A stretch of DNA of 20,988 nt, taken from the IMG/VR virus record IMGVR_UViG_3300008110_001090, positions 1 through 20,988 of that record, one strand, 5' to 3'. How positions within the stretch are numbered: position 1 is the first letter of the stretch; each line of letters opens with the position of its first letter. Origin of the DNA: a virus. Under the pieces are notes generated by a model. The model did no database searches, was not told the DNA's origin, and worked only from the letters and a program-made list of their open reading frames with translations. Below, in pieces: positions 5,251 through 15,109 of this stretch. Position numbers and translations under genes: made by a program.

Positions 5251-6066
5251 ATGGCAGCATTTGCACGTAGGCAGTACTCTGGAGCGGCAGTAGCCACCAC
5301 AATTACCGCTGGAATTAATACAACTGATACAACCTGTACTATTGCCTCGACTACTGGTTGGCCTGCGTCTGTTGGTGTTCCGTTTTATGTGGTTATTGAC
5401 CCAGGCACAACTGTCGAAGAGAAGTGCAGTGCAACAATTTCTGGAGCAAGCCTCACGATTACACGTGCTCAAGATGACACGGTTGCTGCTAGCCATGCGT
5501 CTGGCGCAGTAATTTACCCAGTCTTTACTGCTAGTGATGCTGACGAAGCAAACGAACTTGTAAGCAAACTTACCACCAAAGGTGACCTATTGGTCACTAC
5601 TGGTTCGGCTTTAAACCGTTTGGCTGTTGGTACAAACGATTATGCGTTGCTCGCTGATTCTTCTGCTACGAACGGTGTTGCTTGGAAACAAATTCCTGCT
5701 GCTGGTTTGGCTTCTGACTCGGTAACGAAAGCAAAGATTGCTGACCGTGCTGTGGGTTCAGCCGAACTTGACGGTATCTCGATTAACGCTGGCACTACTA
5801 GTGCATACACCCTTGTGGCTGGTGACGCTAACCGTGTCGTGACTTTTAGTGCGACTACAGCAGTGACTATTCCTGCATCAGTATTTTCTATTGGCGACCA
5901 AATCAACATTTTGCAAACTGGTACAGGTCAGGTGACCATCACTGGTCCTAGCGTGACTGTGCGACTTGAATCTTCACGTAATAAAACAAGAGGTCAGTAT
6001 GCGATGGCTACGGTGATTTGTATTGCCAGTAATGAGTTTGTCGTTCTCGGCAACGTTGTTGCATAG
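5251..6066 (+). CDS. Minor tail / tail-fibre protein with the shared RGxxGTxAAxH-type module (271 aa)
   Basis: Residues about 14-92 are a degenerate copy of the beta module in the adaptor-like protein at 2503-3384: TDTTCTIASTTGWP, ISGASLTITRAQDD and TVAASHASGAVI. Residues 109-146 hold KGDLLVTTGSALNRLAVGTN followed by a DYALLADSSATNGVAW segment, a module typical of phage tail-fibre proteins. The C-terminal part (about 180-271) is a beta-rich VTIPASVFSIGDQINILQTG-type domain. It lies 7 bases after the 618-residue tail protein and 2 bases before the next gene, so all three are probably co-transcribed. A structural fibre or adsorption role is likely. Confidence 0.7.
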   Translation: MAAFARRQYSGAAVATTITAGINTTDTTCTIASTTGWPASVGVPFYVVIDPGTTVEEKCSATISGASLTITRAQDDTVAASHASGAVIYPVFTASDADEANELVSKLTTKGDLLVTTGSALNRLAVGTNDYALLADSSATNGVAWKQIPAAGLASDSVTKAKIADRAVGSAELDGISINAGTTSAYTLVAGDANRVVTFSATTAVTIPASVFSIGDQINILQTGTGQVTITGPSVTVRLESSRNKTRGQYAMATVICIASNEFVVLGNVVA

Positions 6067-6836: not shown

Positions 6837-7064
6837 ATGTCTGAAATAAATAACAATCAAGGTCCAGACCTGACTAAGCCACACAATTTCTTTGCTTTCG
6901 TTATTGACGGCGAAGTTGTTTGGAAGCACATGTTGCCTGAAGAACTAGAACATATGACCGCCGTATATTCATCCGACCCGAAGGTTGTCATTATCCCAGC
7001 AGAACTTGGTCAAACAGTGCAGATGGGTTGGAAATACAACGGGTCAACATTCTCCCCAGAATGA
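6837..7064 (+). CDS. Small conserved phage protein FAFVIDGEVVW (75 aa)
   Basis: The gene has a good ribosome site (AAGGAGAAATA before the ATG). The protein contains FFAFVIDGEVVWKHMLPEEL, then YSSDPKVVIIP and a final GWKYNGSTFSPE. FAFVIDGEV(V/A)xxxxxPE-SDPKxVxxP-GWxYxGxxF is a recurring pattern in aquatic phages, next to structural genes. The function is unknown to me; its place after tail genes suggests a virion or assembly role. The next gene starts in the ATGA overlap. Confidence 0.65.
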   Translation: MSEINNNQGPDLTKPHNFFAFVIDGEVVWKHMLPEELEHMTAVYSSDPKVVIIPAELGQTVQMGWKYNGSTFSPE

Positions 7065-7288
7065 GCGCGTGGGAAGAATATAAAAAGAAACTAGGTACAA
7101 CACGCCCGTGGGATTTAGTTAATCCAAACATCCCTCGTGTTGAAGAACAAGTTGCCAATGAACGCATGGACATTTGTCTTGCTTGTCCTGAACTGATTGG
7201 TTTAACTAAACAATGCAAACAGTGTGGTTGCCTTATGGTGGGGAAGGTTAAGTTGAGGGACGCTGTCTGTCCCGTAGGTAAGTGGTAA
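7061..7288 (+). CDS. Small zinc-binding-type phage protein (75 aa)
   Basis: I choose the ATG at 7061, which overlaps the previous stop (ATGA), rather than an earlier in-frame ATG at 7028 that would run deep into that gene. Cysteines at 39, 42, 52, 55, 57 and 70 make the pattern CLACPE-x9-CKQCGC-x12-CPVGKW. C-x2-CPE with CxxCGC and a terminal CPxxKW is a widespread small phage protein, thought to bind zinc and sometimes placed near tail genes. The N-terminal part (1-36) is charged. Metal binding is inferred from the cysteines; the biological role is unknown. Confidence 0.7.
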   Translation: MSAWEEYKKKLGTTRPWDLVNPNIPRVEEQVANERMDICLACPELIGLTKQCKQCGCLMVGKVKLRDAVCPVGKW

Positions 7289-7289
7289 C

Positions 7290-8495
7290 TTGCGTAGCAA
7301 GTGGCTAATCATCATCCCTGCGATACTGTTCGCACTATTTGCTAAACCCGCTAAAGCCGACATGCTCGGTGAATGGACATACAGCGAATCAAAACCTTGC
7401 AACGGTTCAGTCGAGGTAGTAGACGATACCATCATCTTGCATGGTCCAGACCAGGGTGGGTGTGCAGGTCAAGCGCATTGGGTCAAGATTGAAACCACAA
7501 TCCCCGCCGATGTGGACACAATAGATTTCACTTGGTCATACCAAACGACTGATGGTTGGGTGTATGACCCGCCGCAGTATGGCATTAACGGTGCATACAC
7601 CTTGCTTACACAACAGAACAATGCGACAGGTGAGTTGTCTATAGCCGTTCAAGAGGGTGACATCTTCACGTTCCGTCAGTATTCGATAGATACCTGCTGT
7701 GCGCCTGGGCATCTGACAATTAGTAACCTATCTTTATGGGTATTTACAACAACATCCACAACGTCAACGACGACCTCTACTACTACTGTTCCGTCAACGA
7801 GTGTCCCTGCCACAGTCCTGACTACTACGACAGTTCCAGAAACTACAACTTCAACGACTACGGTTCCAGAAACCACCACCAGTACAACAAGTTCTACGAC
7901 GAGTACAAGTACGACAACTACGGTTCCAGAAACTACAACAACTTCTACTTCTACGACGACGACAAGTACGACGACTACAACATCGTCGACGACCAGTACT
8001 ACAACAACAAGTACTACCGTTTACGTACCCCAAATAACATTGCCAGTATTAGAGCCGACCACGACACTACCGCCAGAAACGTCAACAACGACTACTCTCC
8101 CTCCAGAATTACCAGTGTCAATACCAACAACACTATTACCAACAACAACGGTAAGTCAACCTTCCACGACAACAACATCTCTTCCTCCTGTTATAGAGAC
8201 AACAACAACTCTTCCTGTTGTGGAGACAACAACGACCCTACCTGTAGTAGAAATTTTACAGGATATCTCAACTAAATCCAACGAGGAAATTGCTGCGCTT
8301 GCAACAAATCCCGAAGTGCTTGCAACTGTTAGCAGTCAAGAAGCAGCGCAAATATTTGAATCTTTGGATGTTGCCGACTTGTCAGATACCTATGTGCCAA
8401 TTGGCTCAACAATCCCAGTAGGAACACGCCGTACTCTAATTGCGGTAACCGCTGGAATAAGCCTTGCTGCAGCAGGTACTAGAATTAGAAGGTAA
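7290..8495 (+). CDS. Secreted or surface protein with a long Thr-rich linker (401 aa)
   Basis: It starts at TTG one base after the previous stop. Residues 1-23 form a clear signal peptide (MRSKWLIIIPAILFALF, then AKA before Asp24). Residues 24-152 are a beta-sandwich-like domain with TIDFTWSYQTTDGWVYDPPQ, YGINGAYTLL, VQEGDIFTFRQYSIDTC and TISNLSL, resembling bacterial surface 'choice-of-anchor' or CUB-like domains. Residues about 153-318 are almost only Thr, Ser, Val and Pro with repeated TTTVPETT units. Residues 319-401 form a helical segment, a weak hydrophobic stretch (382-396) and a terminal RIRR, perhaps an anchor. Such linkers are typical of actinobacterial surface proteins. It may modify the infected cell surface or be a captured host adhesin; it sits just before the lysis genes. 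Confidence 0.65.
   Translation: MRSKWLIIIPAILFALFAKPAKADMLGEWTYSESKPCNGSVEVVDDTIILHGPDQGGCAGQAHWVKIETTIPADVDTIDFTWSYQTTDGWVYDPPQYGINGAYTLLTQQNNATGELSIAVQEGDIFTFRQYSIDTCCAPGHLTISNLSLWVFTTTSTTSTTTSTTTVPSTSVPATVLTTTTVPETTTSTTTVPETTTSTTSSTTSTSTTTTVPETTTTSTSTTTTSTTTTTSSTTSTTTTSTTVYVPQITLPVLEPTTTLPPETSTTTTLPPELPVSIPTTLLPTTTVSQPSTTTTSLPPVIETTTTLPVVETTTTLPVVEILQDISTKSNEEIAALATNPEVLATVSSQEAAQIFESLDVADLSDTYVPIGSTIPVGTRRTLIAVTAGISLAAAGTRIRR
7746..8243 (+). repeat. ACN-codon low-complexity repeat encoding the Thr-rich linker
   Basis: About 500 bases consist largely of ACN triplets (ACA, ACG, ACT, ACC) with interspersed GTTCCAGAAAC and CTACCA-type units encoding VPE and LP. This creates long open frames in other phases and on the minus strand, which are shadows. 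Trinucleotide repeats of this kind can expand or contract without a frameshift, so linker length may vary between related phages. Confidence 0.75.
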
Positions 8496-8656
8496 TGAAG
8501 AAGTTTCTTACCTACGTAGTAGATAACGCCTGGACATGGGCTGGTACTGGCATGGTTCTTATAACCCTATCTGGCCCTACCCTGCGTCAGGCAACCCTTA
8601 TTACGGGCGTAGTTGTTTTGATACACTCTATATTGACCTTATCCCAGAAAGACTAA
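8495..8656 (+). CDS. Small membrane protein in the lysis block (53 aa)
   Basis: The ATG at 8495 overlaps the previous TAA. The protein begins MKKFLTYVVDNAWTWAGTGM and has two hydrophobic stretches (about 13-27 and 33-50) separated by PTLRQ, ending SQKD. This fits a small two-pass or hairpin membrane protein. It lies between the secreted Thr-rich protein and the holin-like gene, with the next start 2 bases after its stop, so a role in lysis (holin partner, pinholin or antiholin) is a reasonable guess. No family is recognised. It is supported by the overlap and by the dense packing of this block. Confidence 0.6.
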   Translation: MKKFLTYVVDNAWTWAGTGMVLITLSGPTLRQATLITGVVVLIHSILTLSQKD

Positions 8657-8658
8657 TC

Positions 8659-8904
8659 ATGGCAAAACTCCAGAACATCATCTTCCGTATCTTCGCACTC
8701 TTTGGTTCATCTGCATTGGCGGCTGTTGCTGGTGGTGCAATCATTGGCGTGCAACTCTGGAAGTCAGCAGCACTTGCTGGCATCATGGCTTGTGCACAAG
8801 TAATCGAAAAGTTGTTGCGCTTCAGCGTAGACGGTTCGCTTACAAAAGAAGAGATTGAAATTGCATTCTCTGGAGCAGCAGCACCAAAGCCAAAGGCTGA
8901 GTAA
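8659..8904 (+). CDS. Holin-like membrane protein (81 aa)
   Basis: I take the ATG at 8659 as the start; a longer frame from 8536 would run through the upstream membrane gene. Residues about 12-32 (FALFGSSALAAVAGGAIIGV) and 36-50 are hydrophobic, followed by KLLRFSVDGSLTKEEIEIAF and a short Ala/Pro/Lys tail. The (D/E)GxLTxEEIxxAF motif after two membrane segments is typical of holins in actinobacterial phages. It would form lesions in the host membrane at the end of infection and release the endolysin encoded directly downstream, whose start overlaps its stop (TAATG). Confidence 0.7.
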   Translation: MAKLQNIIFRIFALFGSSALAAVAGGAIIGVQLWKSAALAGIMACAQVIEKLLRFSVDGSLTKEEIEIAFSGAAAPKPKAE

Positions 8905-9449
8905 TGCCAAAACCGAACTGGCCTGTCAAGCCTATTCGTTGGTGTGAACACTTAAAGGGCAAGAAGCCTTCTGATATATCACCAGATATGGTTGTAAAGA
9001 TTACTGGTGGTGGCAAGTTGGAGAAGTGCGCTGCTGCAGCATGGGAAGAAATGGTTGTTGCTGCAAAGGCTGACGGAATTGTTCTCAAACCCACGAGTGC
9101 AGGCGATACATTGCGCAGTATTCAACAGCAGGAAAATGGATTTCGTTCTAGGTATCAGAAAGAACCACTACCAAATACATCAACCAAAACGTGGAATGGT
9201 GAGACTTGGTACCTGAAGCCAGGTATGGCAATGCTTGCTACGCCATACGACGACCCAGCAAACGACAAGGCACGTGGCTCACGCCATTTATACGGCATTG
9301 CCGTAGATGTGGCAAACGCTAACGGCAAAGTTCTTGCTTGGTTGTTAGCGAACGAAGAAAAGTTTGGCTTTTCGCATGAAGTGTTAGGTGACGCAAACGG
9401 AAAAGGTGCAGAACCTTGGCATATCCGTTTCGTAGGCAAGAAGGTTTGA
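8904..9449 (+). CDS. Endolysin: M15/VanY-type D-Ala-D-Ala or L-Ala-D-Glu peptidase (181 aa)
   Basis: Residues 125-137 read GSRHLYGIAVDVA and the end reads EPWHIRFV (170-177). These match the SxHxxGxAxD and ExxWH motifs of peptidase family M15: His128, Asp135 and His173 would bind zinc and Glu170 would be the catalytic base. The first 90 residues contain no recognised cell-wall-binding domain but include LRSIQQQENGFRSRY, the usual substrate-cleft region of this family. The enzyme should cut peptide cross-links or stems of host peptidoglycan. It has no signal peptide and depends on the holin-like protein encoded just upstream. The specific bond cleaved cannot be told from the sequence. Confidence 0.8.
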   Translation: MPKPNWPVKPIRWCEHLKGKKPSDISPDMVVKITGGGKLEKCAAAAWEEMVVAAKADGIVLKPTSAGDTLRSIQQQENGFRSRYQKEPLPNTSTKTWNGETWYLKPGMAMLATPYDDPANDKARGSRHLYGIAVDVANANGKVLAWLLANEEKFGFSHEVLGDANGKGAEPWHIRFVGKKV

Positions 9450-9450
9450 T

Positions 9451-9675
9451 GTGGATACTGGCTGGGCCGCTGTTCTTTCTGCTGTTGTTGCTGGTTCTTT
9501 TGGTCTGCTAACTGTATTTATACAGAAGATGAAGAAGGAAAACTCTAAAGACCATGCTGTTGTTATGGGCATGCTCAAGATGGTTTACCGTGCGCAGAAC
9601 AGGACAGAGGATAAAGTATCGAAGATAGGAGACACTCTCACGGAGCACATACAAAAACACGGAGAATCTCACTGA
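9451..9675 (+). CDS. Single-pass membrane protein in the lysis block (74 aa)
   Basis: It starts at GTG (9451) right after the endolysin stop. Residues about 5-24 (WAAVLSAVVAGSFGLLTVFI) form one membrane segment, followed by QKMKKENSKDHAVVMGMLKM and an amphipathic helix rich in charged residues up to HIQKHGESH. One N-terminal membrane helix plus a cytoplasmic coiled-coil-like helix next to holin and endolysin is common in actinobacterial phage lysis cassettes (DUF2746-like). A role in holin timing or a second holin is inferred. Confidence 0.6.
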   Translation: MDTGWAAVLSAVVAGSFGLLTVFIQKMKKENSKDHAVVMGMLKMVYRAQNRTEDKVSKIGDTLTEHIQKHGESH

Positions 9676-14292: not shown

Positions 14293-14610
14293 ATGGAATC
14301 GGAACTCGGTTTAGTTGATGCAGACATGTCATGGCAGGACAAAGCAAACTGTCGTGGCGTAGATACAGACATCTTCTACTTGGAGCAAGGTCTCACCAAA
14401 GAGAATAACGAGAAGAAAGTTATCTATAAAGAACTATGTGGCAAGTGCATAGTAAAAGGTAAGTGTTTATCATTTGCACAAATCAATCAAATAGAACATG
14501 GAGTATGGGGTGGACTTACACCACGAGAAAGGAAGAAGCATGCAAGCAGAGTTAGAGTTCGAGTTGGACTTCCTAAAGAACAGAGTGCACGAGTTACAGC
14601 AGTCGCTTGA
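14293..14610 (+). CDS. WhiB-like iron-sulfur transcription factor, copy 1 (105 aa)
   Basis: The start codon directly follows the previous stop, with GGAGG in the preceding gene. Cysteines at 20, 49, 52 and 58 give C-x28-C-x2-C-x5-C, the WhiB cluster that binds [4Fe-4S], and GVWGGLTPRERKK (70-82) is the invariant turn and basic tail of the family. WhiB proteins bind the principal sigma factor and DNA in Actinobacteria; phage copies can repress host WhiB genes or redirect transcription. Here the region after Cys20 (DTDIFYLEQ) differs from the common D.xxFFPE. The C-terminal end overlaps the next gene. Confidence 0.85.
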   Translation: MESELGLVDADMSWQDKANCRGVDTDIFYLEQGLTKENNEKKVIYKELCGKCIVKGKCLSFAQINQIEHGVWGGLTPRERKKHASRVRVRVGLPKEQSARVTAVA

Positions 14611-14758: not shown

Positions 14759-15109
14759 ATGTTTGGTTGGCCTGTAGAGGAAACCAAGGAAGAAAGAGAA
14801 AGAAAAAAACAAAGGGAGAAAGCAATGACAGAAATAATGGAAGCATGGTCTCTTGTCAATAAAGACTTTGACTGGCAGGATGATGCTGCATGTATTGAAG
14901 TAGAGGATGAAGATTGGTTCTTTCCTGAAGGGCCAGGTAATCCAAACGCAAAGTTCAGCAAAGCAAAAGAAGTGTGCGCTACTTGCAACGTAACGCTAGA
15001 GTGTTTACGTTTTGCTGTTGATAACAAGTTCGACTATGGTGTGTGGGGTGGACTTACACCTGAGGAGCGGAGGGAAATAAATTGGGAGACATACCAACCA
15101 GGTACTTAG
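14759..15109 (+). CDS. WhiB-like iron-sulfur transcription factor, copy 2 (116 aa)
   Basis: Cysteines at 45, 73, 76 and 82 form the WhiB pattern, with the standard DWFFPEGPG segment (52-60) after the first and GVWGGLTPEERRE (94-106) after the last. It is closer to the canonical family than copy 1. The first 22 residues are very basic and acidic (KEERERKKQREK) and may be an extension; an in-frame ATG at 14825 with AGGGAG upstream would give a 94-residue form starting MTEIMEAW. Two different WhiB proteins in one operon suggests separate targets or a heteromeric regulator. It would bind host sigma factor and an Fe-S cluster in the cytoplasm. Confidence 0.85.
   Translation: MFGWPVEETKEERERKKQREKAMTEIMEAWSLVNKDFDWQDDAACIEVEDEDWFFPEGPGNPNAKFSKAKEVCATCNVTLECLRFAVDNKFDYGVWGGLTPEERREINWETYQPGT

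Follow-up and report, generated by a model that had tools for sequence, protein, structure and literature searches.

A phage-encoded stalk protein with exchangeable heads and its constant small hydrophobic partner

The viral DNA analysed here, a complete virus record of the IMG/VR type comprising 20,988 bases (hereafter the window), encodes a predicted exported protein in which a signal peptide, a beta-sandwich head, a Thr-rich linker, a helical tail and a C-terminal hydrophobic helix follow one another. We found that this stalk protein is paired, without exception within the loci sampled, with a small protein carrying two hydrophobic segments, and that different heads occur on near-identical tails. 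Tentatively, we propose that the two genes form a module by which a binding head, itself interchangeable, is tethered to the infected cell, where it would occupy envelope glycans. The domain architecture is well supported, whereas topology, late timing, glycan binding and a role in exclusion are inferred. The features of the locus are listed in Table 1.

Table 1. Features of the stalk locus in the window
Feature	Position	Strand	Basis or remarks
Virion-protein gene, upstream	5251-6066		phrog_23837 'virion structural protein', E 2e-57
Stalk protein gene	7290..8495	+	401 aa, one open frame, TTG start
Predicted signal peptide, 23 aa	7290..7358	+	signal-peptidase I site A-x-A^D; hydropathy
Head, 127 aa, 10-strand beta-sandwich	7359..7739	+	AlphaFold2 model; fold match VesC (6bqm)
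Thr/Ser/Pro-rich linker, residues 153-320	7746..8249	+	composition; ACN-repeat DNA
Conserved tail	8277..8492	+	short helices, YVPIGSTIPV loop, hydrophobic end RRTLIAVTAGISLAAAGTRIRR
Partner, 53 aa, two hydrophobic segments	8495..8656	+	phrog_29041; hydropathy
81-aa hydrophobic protein	8659..8904	+	phrog_26427, PHROGs label 'nuclease'
M15/VanY-type peptidase	8904..9449	+	PF02557, E 6.8e-13, over cut-off
74-aa protein, one N-terminal hydrophobic segment	9451..9675	+	hydropathy

Results

A predicted exported protein with a beta-sandwich head

The signal peptide of the window protein ends with AKA^D and its hydrophobic core has a 15-residue mean Kyte-Doolittle hydropathy of 2.27. A signal-peptidase site (A or V, any residue, A, then D, E or Q) was present in 81/81 stalk copies (the best 80 of 170 loci plus the window's own, contigs not being deduplicated); outside this site, the signal peptide varied among relatives. 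With a cleavable signal peptide and an A-x-A site, the protein has the predicted characteristics of a Sec-exported surface protein. No lipobox Cys followed the cleavage site, where D, E or Q was found in all 81 copies. The LPXTG motif was absent from the window protein and from the last 60 residues of all 203 distinct copies (in fused copies, these residues belong to the partner domain), and it was found anywhere in the protein in 3 of the 203. An initial annotation of this DNA had described a secreted Thr-rich adhesin. Its signal peptide, beta-sandwich and Thr-rich linker were confirmed by the sequence, an AlphaFold2 model and the composition, respectively, and the secretion and surface location that it implied are supported by the conserved cleavage site (81/81), the predicted C-terminal helix and the presence of the partner in 198/198 distinct loci.

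AlphaFold2, applied to 29 relatives, predicted the head to consist of 10 strands (mean pLDDT 92.4, pTM 0.87). The best solved fold was the C-terminal beta-sandwich of VesC (6bqm; Z 12.1, rmsd 2.3 over 111 residues, 11% identity), followed by Elapor1 (Z 10.6). Further fold matches comprised glycosidase-attached modules, carbohydrate-binding modules, tailspike modules and MAM domains. Matches among predicted viral proteins included two from uncultured Caudovirales phages (79% and 76% identity) and another of 34% identity. The likeness to VesC is one of fold, not of function: VesC is a secreted protease, whereas searches of Pfam, PHROGs and NCBIfam with the window stalk protein returned no family match, and hence no enzymatic or protease family. 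Glycans are a possible ligand of the head.

Sequence comparisons gave weaker matches, which were set aside. Pfam searches with the 29 heads returned nine scattered families at E values up to 1, the best being Big_13 in 4 heads (E 0.0047), and these were discarded as support; a profile search of solved sequences yielded weak matches to fluorescent proteins and others (best E 0.034). PA14 was not matched by Pfam in the window head and was absent from the nine families.

Head, tail and partner are all under purifying selection. Median dN/dS values, taken over non-independent pairs with dS between 0.1 and 1, were 0.106 for the head (771 pairs), 0.123 for the tail (917 pairs) and 0.065 for the partner (748 pairs), which is therefore the most constrained of the three, and dN/dS exceeded 1 in no pair of any of these parts. 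The stalk frame was broken or ended early in four loci (L050, L060, L026 and L072), the tail of L060 and L050 being open in a different frame. Repeat slippage and assembly error are indistinguishable as causes of these breaks.

Length variation of the linker

Of the 168 linker residues, 83 are Thr (49%), encoded by 83 ACN codons, compared with a maximum of 22% Thr in any other open 168-residue stretch of the window. The linker DNA contains tandem repeats at 7833-8014 and 8183-8245. In 102 proteins, the distance from the end of the head to the start of the tail ranged from 147 to 420 residues, with a median of 209.5, extra helical repeats being included in these figures. When head and tail were both at least 96% identical, the linker distance still differed in 31 of the 34 pairs, by up to 58 residues. 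The residues falling in the linker gaps were Thr, Ser or Pro in 75% of cases, against 49% across these linkers overall. This pattern fits an in-frame length change of repeat DNA, as the initial annotation had anticipated for the ACN repeats.

Different heads on a conserved tail

The initial annotation had overlooked two features: the overlapping partner gene (8495-8656) and a helical region at the C-terminus (about residues 325-401), which ends in a hydrophobic segment flanked by arginines. In the tail model (mean pLDDT 85.0), five short helices and a loop precede a helix that spans residues 81-103. Confidence was low at the C-terminal helix, with pLDDT values of 49-75 over the last blocks and 49 at the end. 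This helix is weakly hydrophobic in the window protein (15-residue mean 1.79, 19-residue mean 1.14), and its lowest hydropathy among 102 relatives was -0.19. The window tail is devoid of 33 alignment columns that are present in other rows, its end being intact. No solved structural relative of the tail model was found in the PDB (best E 1.1).

Viral contigs were scanned with the head (170 relatives) and with the C-terminal region alone (344 relatives), each scan contributing its best 80 loci. After two further scans, the tail was found in 265 of 282 loci. Since several loci can share one contig, counts were made on distinct tail DNA, near-identical variants still being counted apart. Many tail relatives carried another head between the signal peptide and the Thr-rich linker. 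Small custom HMMs assigned the heads on 203 distinct tails to the following classes: 108 VesC-like, 27 PA14-like, 14 'PPC-like', 4 'CBM-like', 1 PPC-like plus PA14-like and 17 other, with 32 cut at a contig end; these shares are biased by the 80 loci found through their head, and the PA14 and PPC classes may be under-called because several of their seeds were too short. Two of the 17 'other' heads (L050 and L060) are frame-broken copies, and one head classed as PPC-like (L158) appears truncated at its start.

The labels 'PPC-like', 'CBM-like' and 'FN3-like' were assigned by eye; Pfam gave no PPC, CBM or FN3 family for L275, L200 or L204, and a sub-threshold fn3 match for L169. PA14 (PF07691) exceeded the Pfam gathering score in L183 (28.9 bits versus 24), remained below the cut-off in L201 (22.7), L148 (20.1) and L130 (18.5), and was not matched in L140. 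An LCCL domain passed the Pfam cut-off in L200. Two other candidates were rejected: EPTP in L169, which was just over the cut-off (22.7 versus 21) with no single stretch passing, and, in longer relatives, matches to the helical domains Glycos_trans_3N, GatB_Yqey and DUF445, which were weak and below the cut-offs.

The comparison of tails across head classes showed that different heads occur on near-identical tails. The alignments covered 90 residues or more in 3,507 cross-class pairs, and tail identity reached at least 90% in 27 of these. A single PA14 locus, L260, located on a 6.4-kb contig, was shared by 21 of the 27; its tail is 97.1% identical to that of the VesC-like L246, the highest value among cross-class pairs. 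The independent pairs include L155 (VesC-like) and L167, and L171 and L177, with tails 92.4% identical in both cases. As the head types differ on a conserved anchor, display would be the constant job of the protein and the ligand its variable.

The locus L246 lies near one end of a 43.9-kb contig (IMGVR_UViG_3300044612_000631) that has a second stalk tail, L259, near its other end. The two tails are 97% and 93% identical to the query, respectively, and perhaps represent two copies in one phage.

A constant partner

The partner gene starts on the last base of the stalk stop codon (8493-8495), the two genes thus overlapping by one base. Its product belongs to PHROG 29041 (E 5.4e-33; residues 1-53 on positions 1-53 of the 55 of the profile), which was matched by 12 of 13 aligned partners. 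No function is assigned to this PHROG, and its entry, as shown, makes no mention of the stalk protein. In hydropathy plots (17-residue means), the second segment of the partner is clear (2.15) and the first is weak (0.84).

By HMM, the partner was directly downstream in 258 of 260 tail-bearing loci: after the stalk stop codon in 215, overlapping it in 23, and fused in frame to the stalk in 20. When distinct loci were considered, the HMM detected it in 196 of 198, and the other two (L197 and L232) showed a fused domain on reading, so that the partner was adjacent or fused in 198/198. Such fusions suggest that both ends meet in the same membrane. The reverse search, starting from the partner, gave at least 511 relatives, and a tail-bearing stalk was immediately upstream in 59/59 newly numbered loci among the matches listed. 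After subtraction of 24 loci found earlier and 5 duplicates, this held for 30/30 independent loci, whose heads were PA14-like in 17 cases, VesC-like in 4, and other or cut off in 9.

Set against class II holins, which are small proteins with two membrane helices encoded near the endolysin, the partner has 53 residues, one clear and one weak hydrophobic segment, and an M15 gene two genes on.

Genomic surroundings, carriers and hosts

The M15/VanY-type peptidase encoded downstream is likely an endolysin; its gene also matches the tape-measure family phrog_16823 (E 5.7e-25) and, weakly, an endolysin PHROG (E 0.0073). The gene between partner and peptidase, whose match to phrog_26427 was found in a scanned frame extending from 8536 to 8904 (residues 42-120), looks from its sequence like that of a small membrane protein. 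The statement that the stalk gene stands in a lysis block held more widely: 135 distinct loci extended for 4 kb or more downstream, and within these 4 kb, 110 of them had at least one of three lysis-type genes and 25 had none. Taken singly, M15 was present in 74 of these loci, a phrog_26427-like gene in 104 and the one-segment gene in 98; the profiles behind these counts started from one to three seeds, were expanded in three rounds and may be loose. In L166 and L167, a 360-residue ORF and further ORFs replace the lysis-type genes downstream of the partner; they look like putative sugar-modifying enzymes.

The upstream virion-protein gene has homologues in 53 of 81 loci when the window's locus is counted. 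Immediately before the stalk gene, positions 7028-7288 encode a small Cys-rich protein (phrog_13558; DUF6171 below the cut-off), with homologues in 17/81 loci, again counting the window.

We also compared the divergence of the head with that of neighbouring genes. The tail, and not the head, followed the virion-protein gene (correlation 0.69). With the tail allowed for, co-variation of the head amounted to 0.16 with the virion-protein gene (45 loci; value reached in 26/500 permutations), 0.03 with a second upstream gene (25 loci; 139/500) and 0.06 with the M15 gene (54 loci; 38/500).

Two WhiB-like genes are present in the window (14332-14535 and 14873-15076), both over the Pfam cut-off. WhiB was found in 38 of 46 selected carrier records (30 to 211 kb), with 8 lacking it, and, among 14 control genomes, in Corynebacterium glutamicum only. 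Its presence in the window and in the carriers points to actinobacterial hosts, and the virus therefore probably infects actinobacteria. Of 37 carrier records, 22 had a match to a terminase profile. Fifteen selected candidates of the 22 fell into five groups, defined by the absence of any between-group BLASTP match over 150 residues at E 0.001; three of the 15 matched the profile weakly, and the extracted sequence of one fell short of its reported length. The divergence of these five groups indicates that the pair occurs in widely divergent phages.

We searched 84,980 bacterial and archaeal genomes for near-exact matches to two conserved head peptides. The single hit, a 21-residue match (L082:917-979) in an alphaproteobacterial metagenome-assembled genome, was taken as spurious. 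Phage records queried with the window protein, with the whole window and with one neighbouring protein gave no match.

Discussion

The results point to a phage-encoded display module, whose mode of action we picture as follows. The stalk protein would be exported and its signal peptide cleaved. The beta-sandwich head would then be carried outward through the cell wall on the long, presumably disordered, Thr-rich stalk, while the C-terminal helix would remain in the cytoplasmic membrane, where the small partner with its two hydrophobic segments may hold or stabilise this anchor. The exchangeable head would bind a variable ligand, most likely host-envelope glycans. As the pair is mostly found with lysis-type genes, it would probably be made late in infection. 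By occupying envelope glycans on the infected cell and on debris, the head could bar other phages from superinfection and limit the loss of progeny by re-adsorption. We rank receptor occupation first among the uses of the tethered module. Masking of the receptor used by the phage's own fibre should make the head co-vary with the virion-protein gene, and the weak correlation observed counts against this; glycan masking need not, however, match the phage's own fibre. A broader formulation, possible though we hold it with some doubt, is that a shared display chassis with its constant partner, found beside lysis genes in at least five divergent lineages of Caudoviricetes, receives heads of different folds by recombination, and that through these heads the outside is bound, masked or sensed before the burst.

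The stalk might alternatively make infected cells adhere to other cells, to particles or to surfaces, so that lysis occurs near new hosts, the head setting the target. The combination of a Thr-rich stalk and outward domains such as PA14 and LCCL is indeed adhesin-like, and phage-encoded cell adhesins, PblA and PblB, are on record (PMC9917116). Yet adhesion has no obvious need for closeness to lysis-type genes, and we consider this explanation rather unlikely. According to the passage on these Streptococcus mitis phage proteins in PMC9917116, PblA and PblB resemble the stalk in that phage proteins end up on cells and bind; they differ in that they are released by lysis and then bind the remaining cells. 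A stalk that bears an exchangeable head and has a membrane partner is absent from that passage.

Also unlikely is a sensor that times lysis, in which the outward head would bind a signal (superinfecting virions, neighbouring cells or a wall polymer) and the partner would be a holin or antiholin, whose opening is delayed or triggered by the bound stalk. In T4, RI acts on the holin T in lysis inhibition. A role of this type would agree with the two hydrophobic segments of the partner and its location mostly near lysis-type genes, with its fusions to the stalk, which the HMM detected in frame in 20 of 260 loci and reading of the sequence showed in L197 and L232, and with its dN/dS of 0.065, the lowest among head, tail and partner. 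Against it, the M15 gene of the window is flanked by genes for two further small hydrophobic proteins (8659-8904 and 9451-9675), and these loosely resemble LysF1a and LysF1b, so that the partner need not be the holin. LysF1a, with two membrane segments, and LysF1b, with one N-terminal segment, act in mycobacteriophage lysis (PMC13056207); their resemblance is to these two window proteins, not to the stalk. Small holin-like proteins with one or two membrane segments are also encoded beside the endolysin in Gordonia phages, as stated in the relevant part of PMC9671378. The terms 'adhesin', 'fused', 'PA14' and 'threonine' are all absent from the main text of that paper, a study of Gordonia lysis cassettes.

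We find it still more doubtful that stalk and partner are effectors of lysis that disrupt or bridge the outer envelope, in the manner of spanins but in a Gram-positive host. The location near lysis-type genes and a design that would span the membrane, the wall and the outside are in keeping with such a function, but interchangeable head types and a length-variable stalk are unexpected in a bridging machine, and the window protein has no enzymatic family match.

That the stalk is a virion or tail protein, with a hydrophobic N-terminus that merely resembles a signal peptide, appears very unlikely. Similar sandwich modules do occur in tailspikes, a virion-protein gene lies upstream with homologues in 53 of 81 loci, and the divergence of the tail follows this gene (0.69). 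Opposed to this are the cleavage site in 81/81 copies, the predicted C-terminal helix and the presence, throughout the distinct loci examined, of a partner with hydrophobic segments. The initial annotation had set its adhesin against a virion protein restricted to phages and left unprocessed: close relatives were indeed found in phages, but the conserved cleavage site argues against the lack of processing. Finally, capture of a host surface gene by phages, which the initial annotation had entertained as its second option, is suggested by the bacterial look of such Thr-rich linkers and signal peptides, but is highly improbable in view of the 170 relatives found in viral contigs by one scan, versus no convincing head relative by near-exact peptide match in 84,980 genomes, and of the tail and partner travelling together in the phages sampled. 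The same annotation also called such a protein odd in a phage, which is not borne out in the present group of phages.

A phage-encoded exported protein devoted to superinfection exclusion is known in T5, whose lipoprotein Llp would block receptors. The stalk differs from Llp by having a signal-peptidase I site instead of a lipobox, and modular heads on a stalk. The stalk-partner pair was not described in the literature searched (CC0, CC BY and CC BY-SA papers), and none of six terms looked for was present in PMC6802176.

Strong selection at the host surface during infection is indicated by this widespread and conserved phage gene pair, hitherto unnamed, whose heads are exchangeable. The pairing with the stalk provides a context for phrog_29041, and heads with known binding folds make the target testable. 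Among the phage records searched, the module was found in one, the Actinomycetia phage DSL-LC01 (OQ999401.1), a genome assembled from a lake-water metagenome. There, tail (E 3.5e-30) and partner (E 3.3e-17) are fused in a 944-residue CDS annotated as 'hypothetical protein' (WJZ48438.1), which matched none of four head models; the passages of PMC10611076 consulted on this phage make no mention of the fused module. From this lake-derived record and the WhiB genes, hosts such as Ca. Nanopelagicales are plausible. If the hosts include such freshwater actinobacteria, the module would bear on bacteria that are abundant worldwide and for which phage isolates were not reported until 2023 (PMC10202952). 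The terminase match of DSL-LC01 (L343) contains one in-frame TGA.
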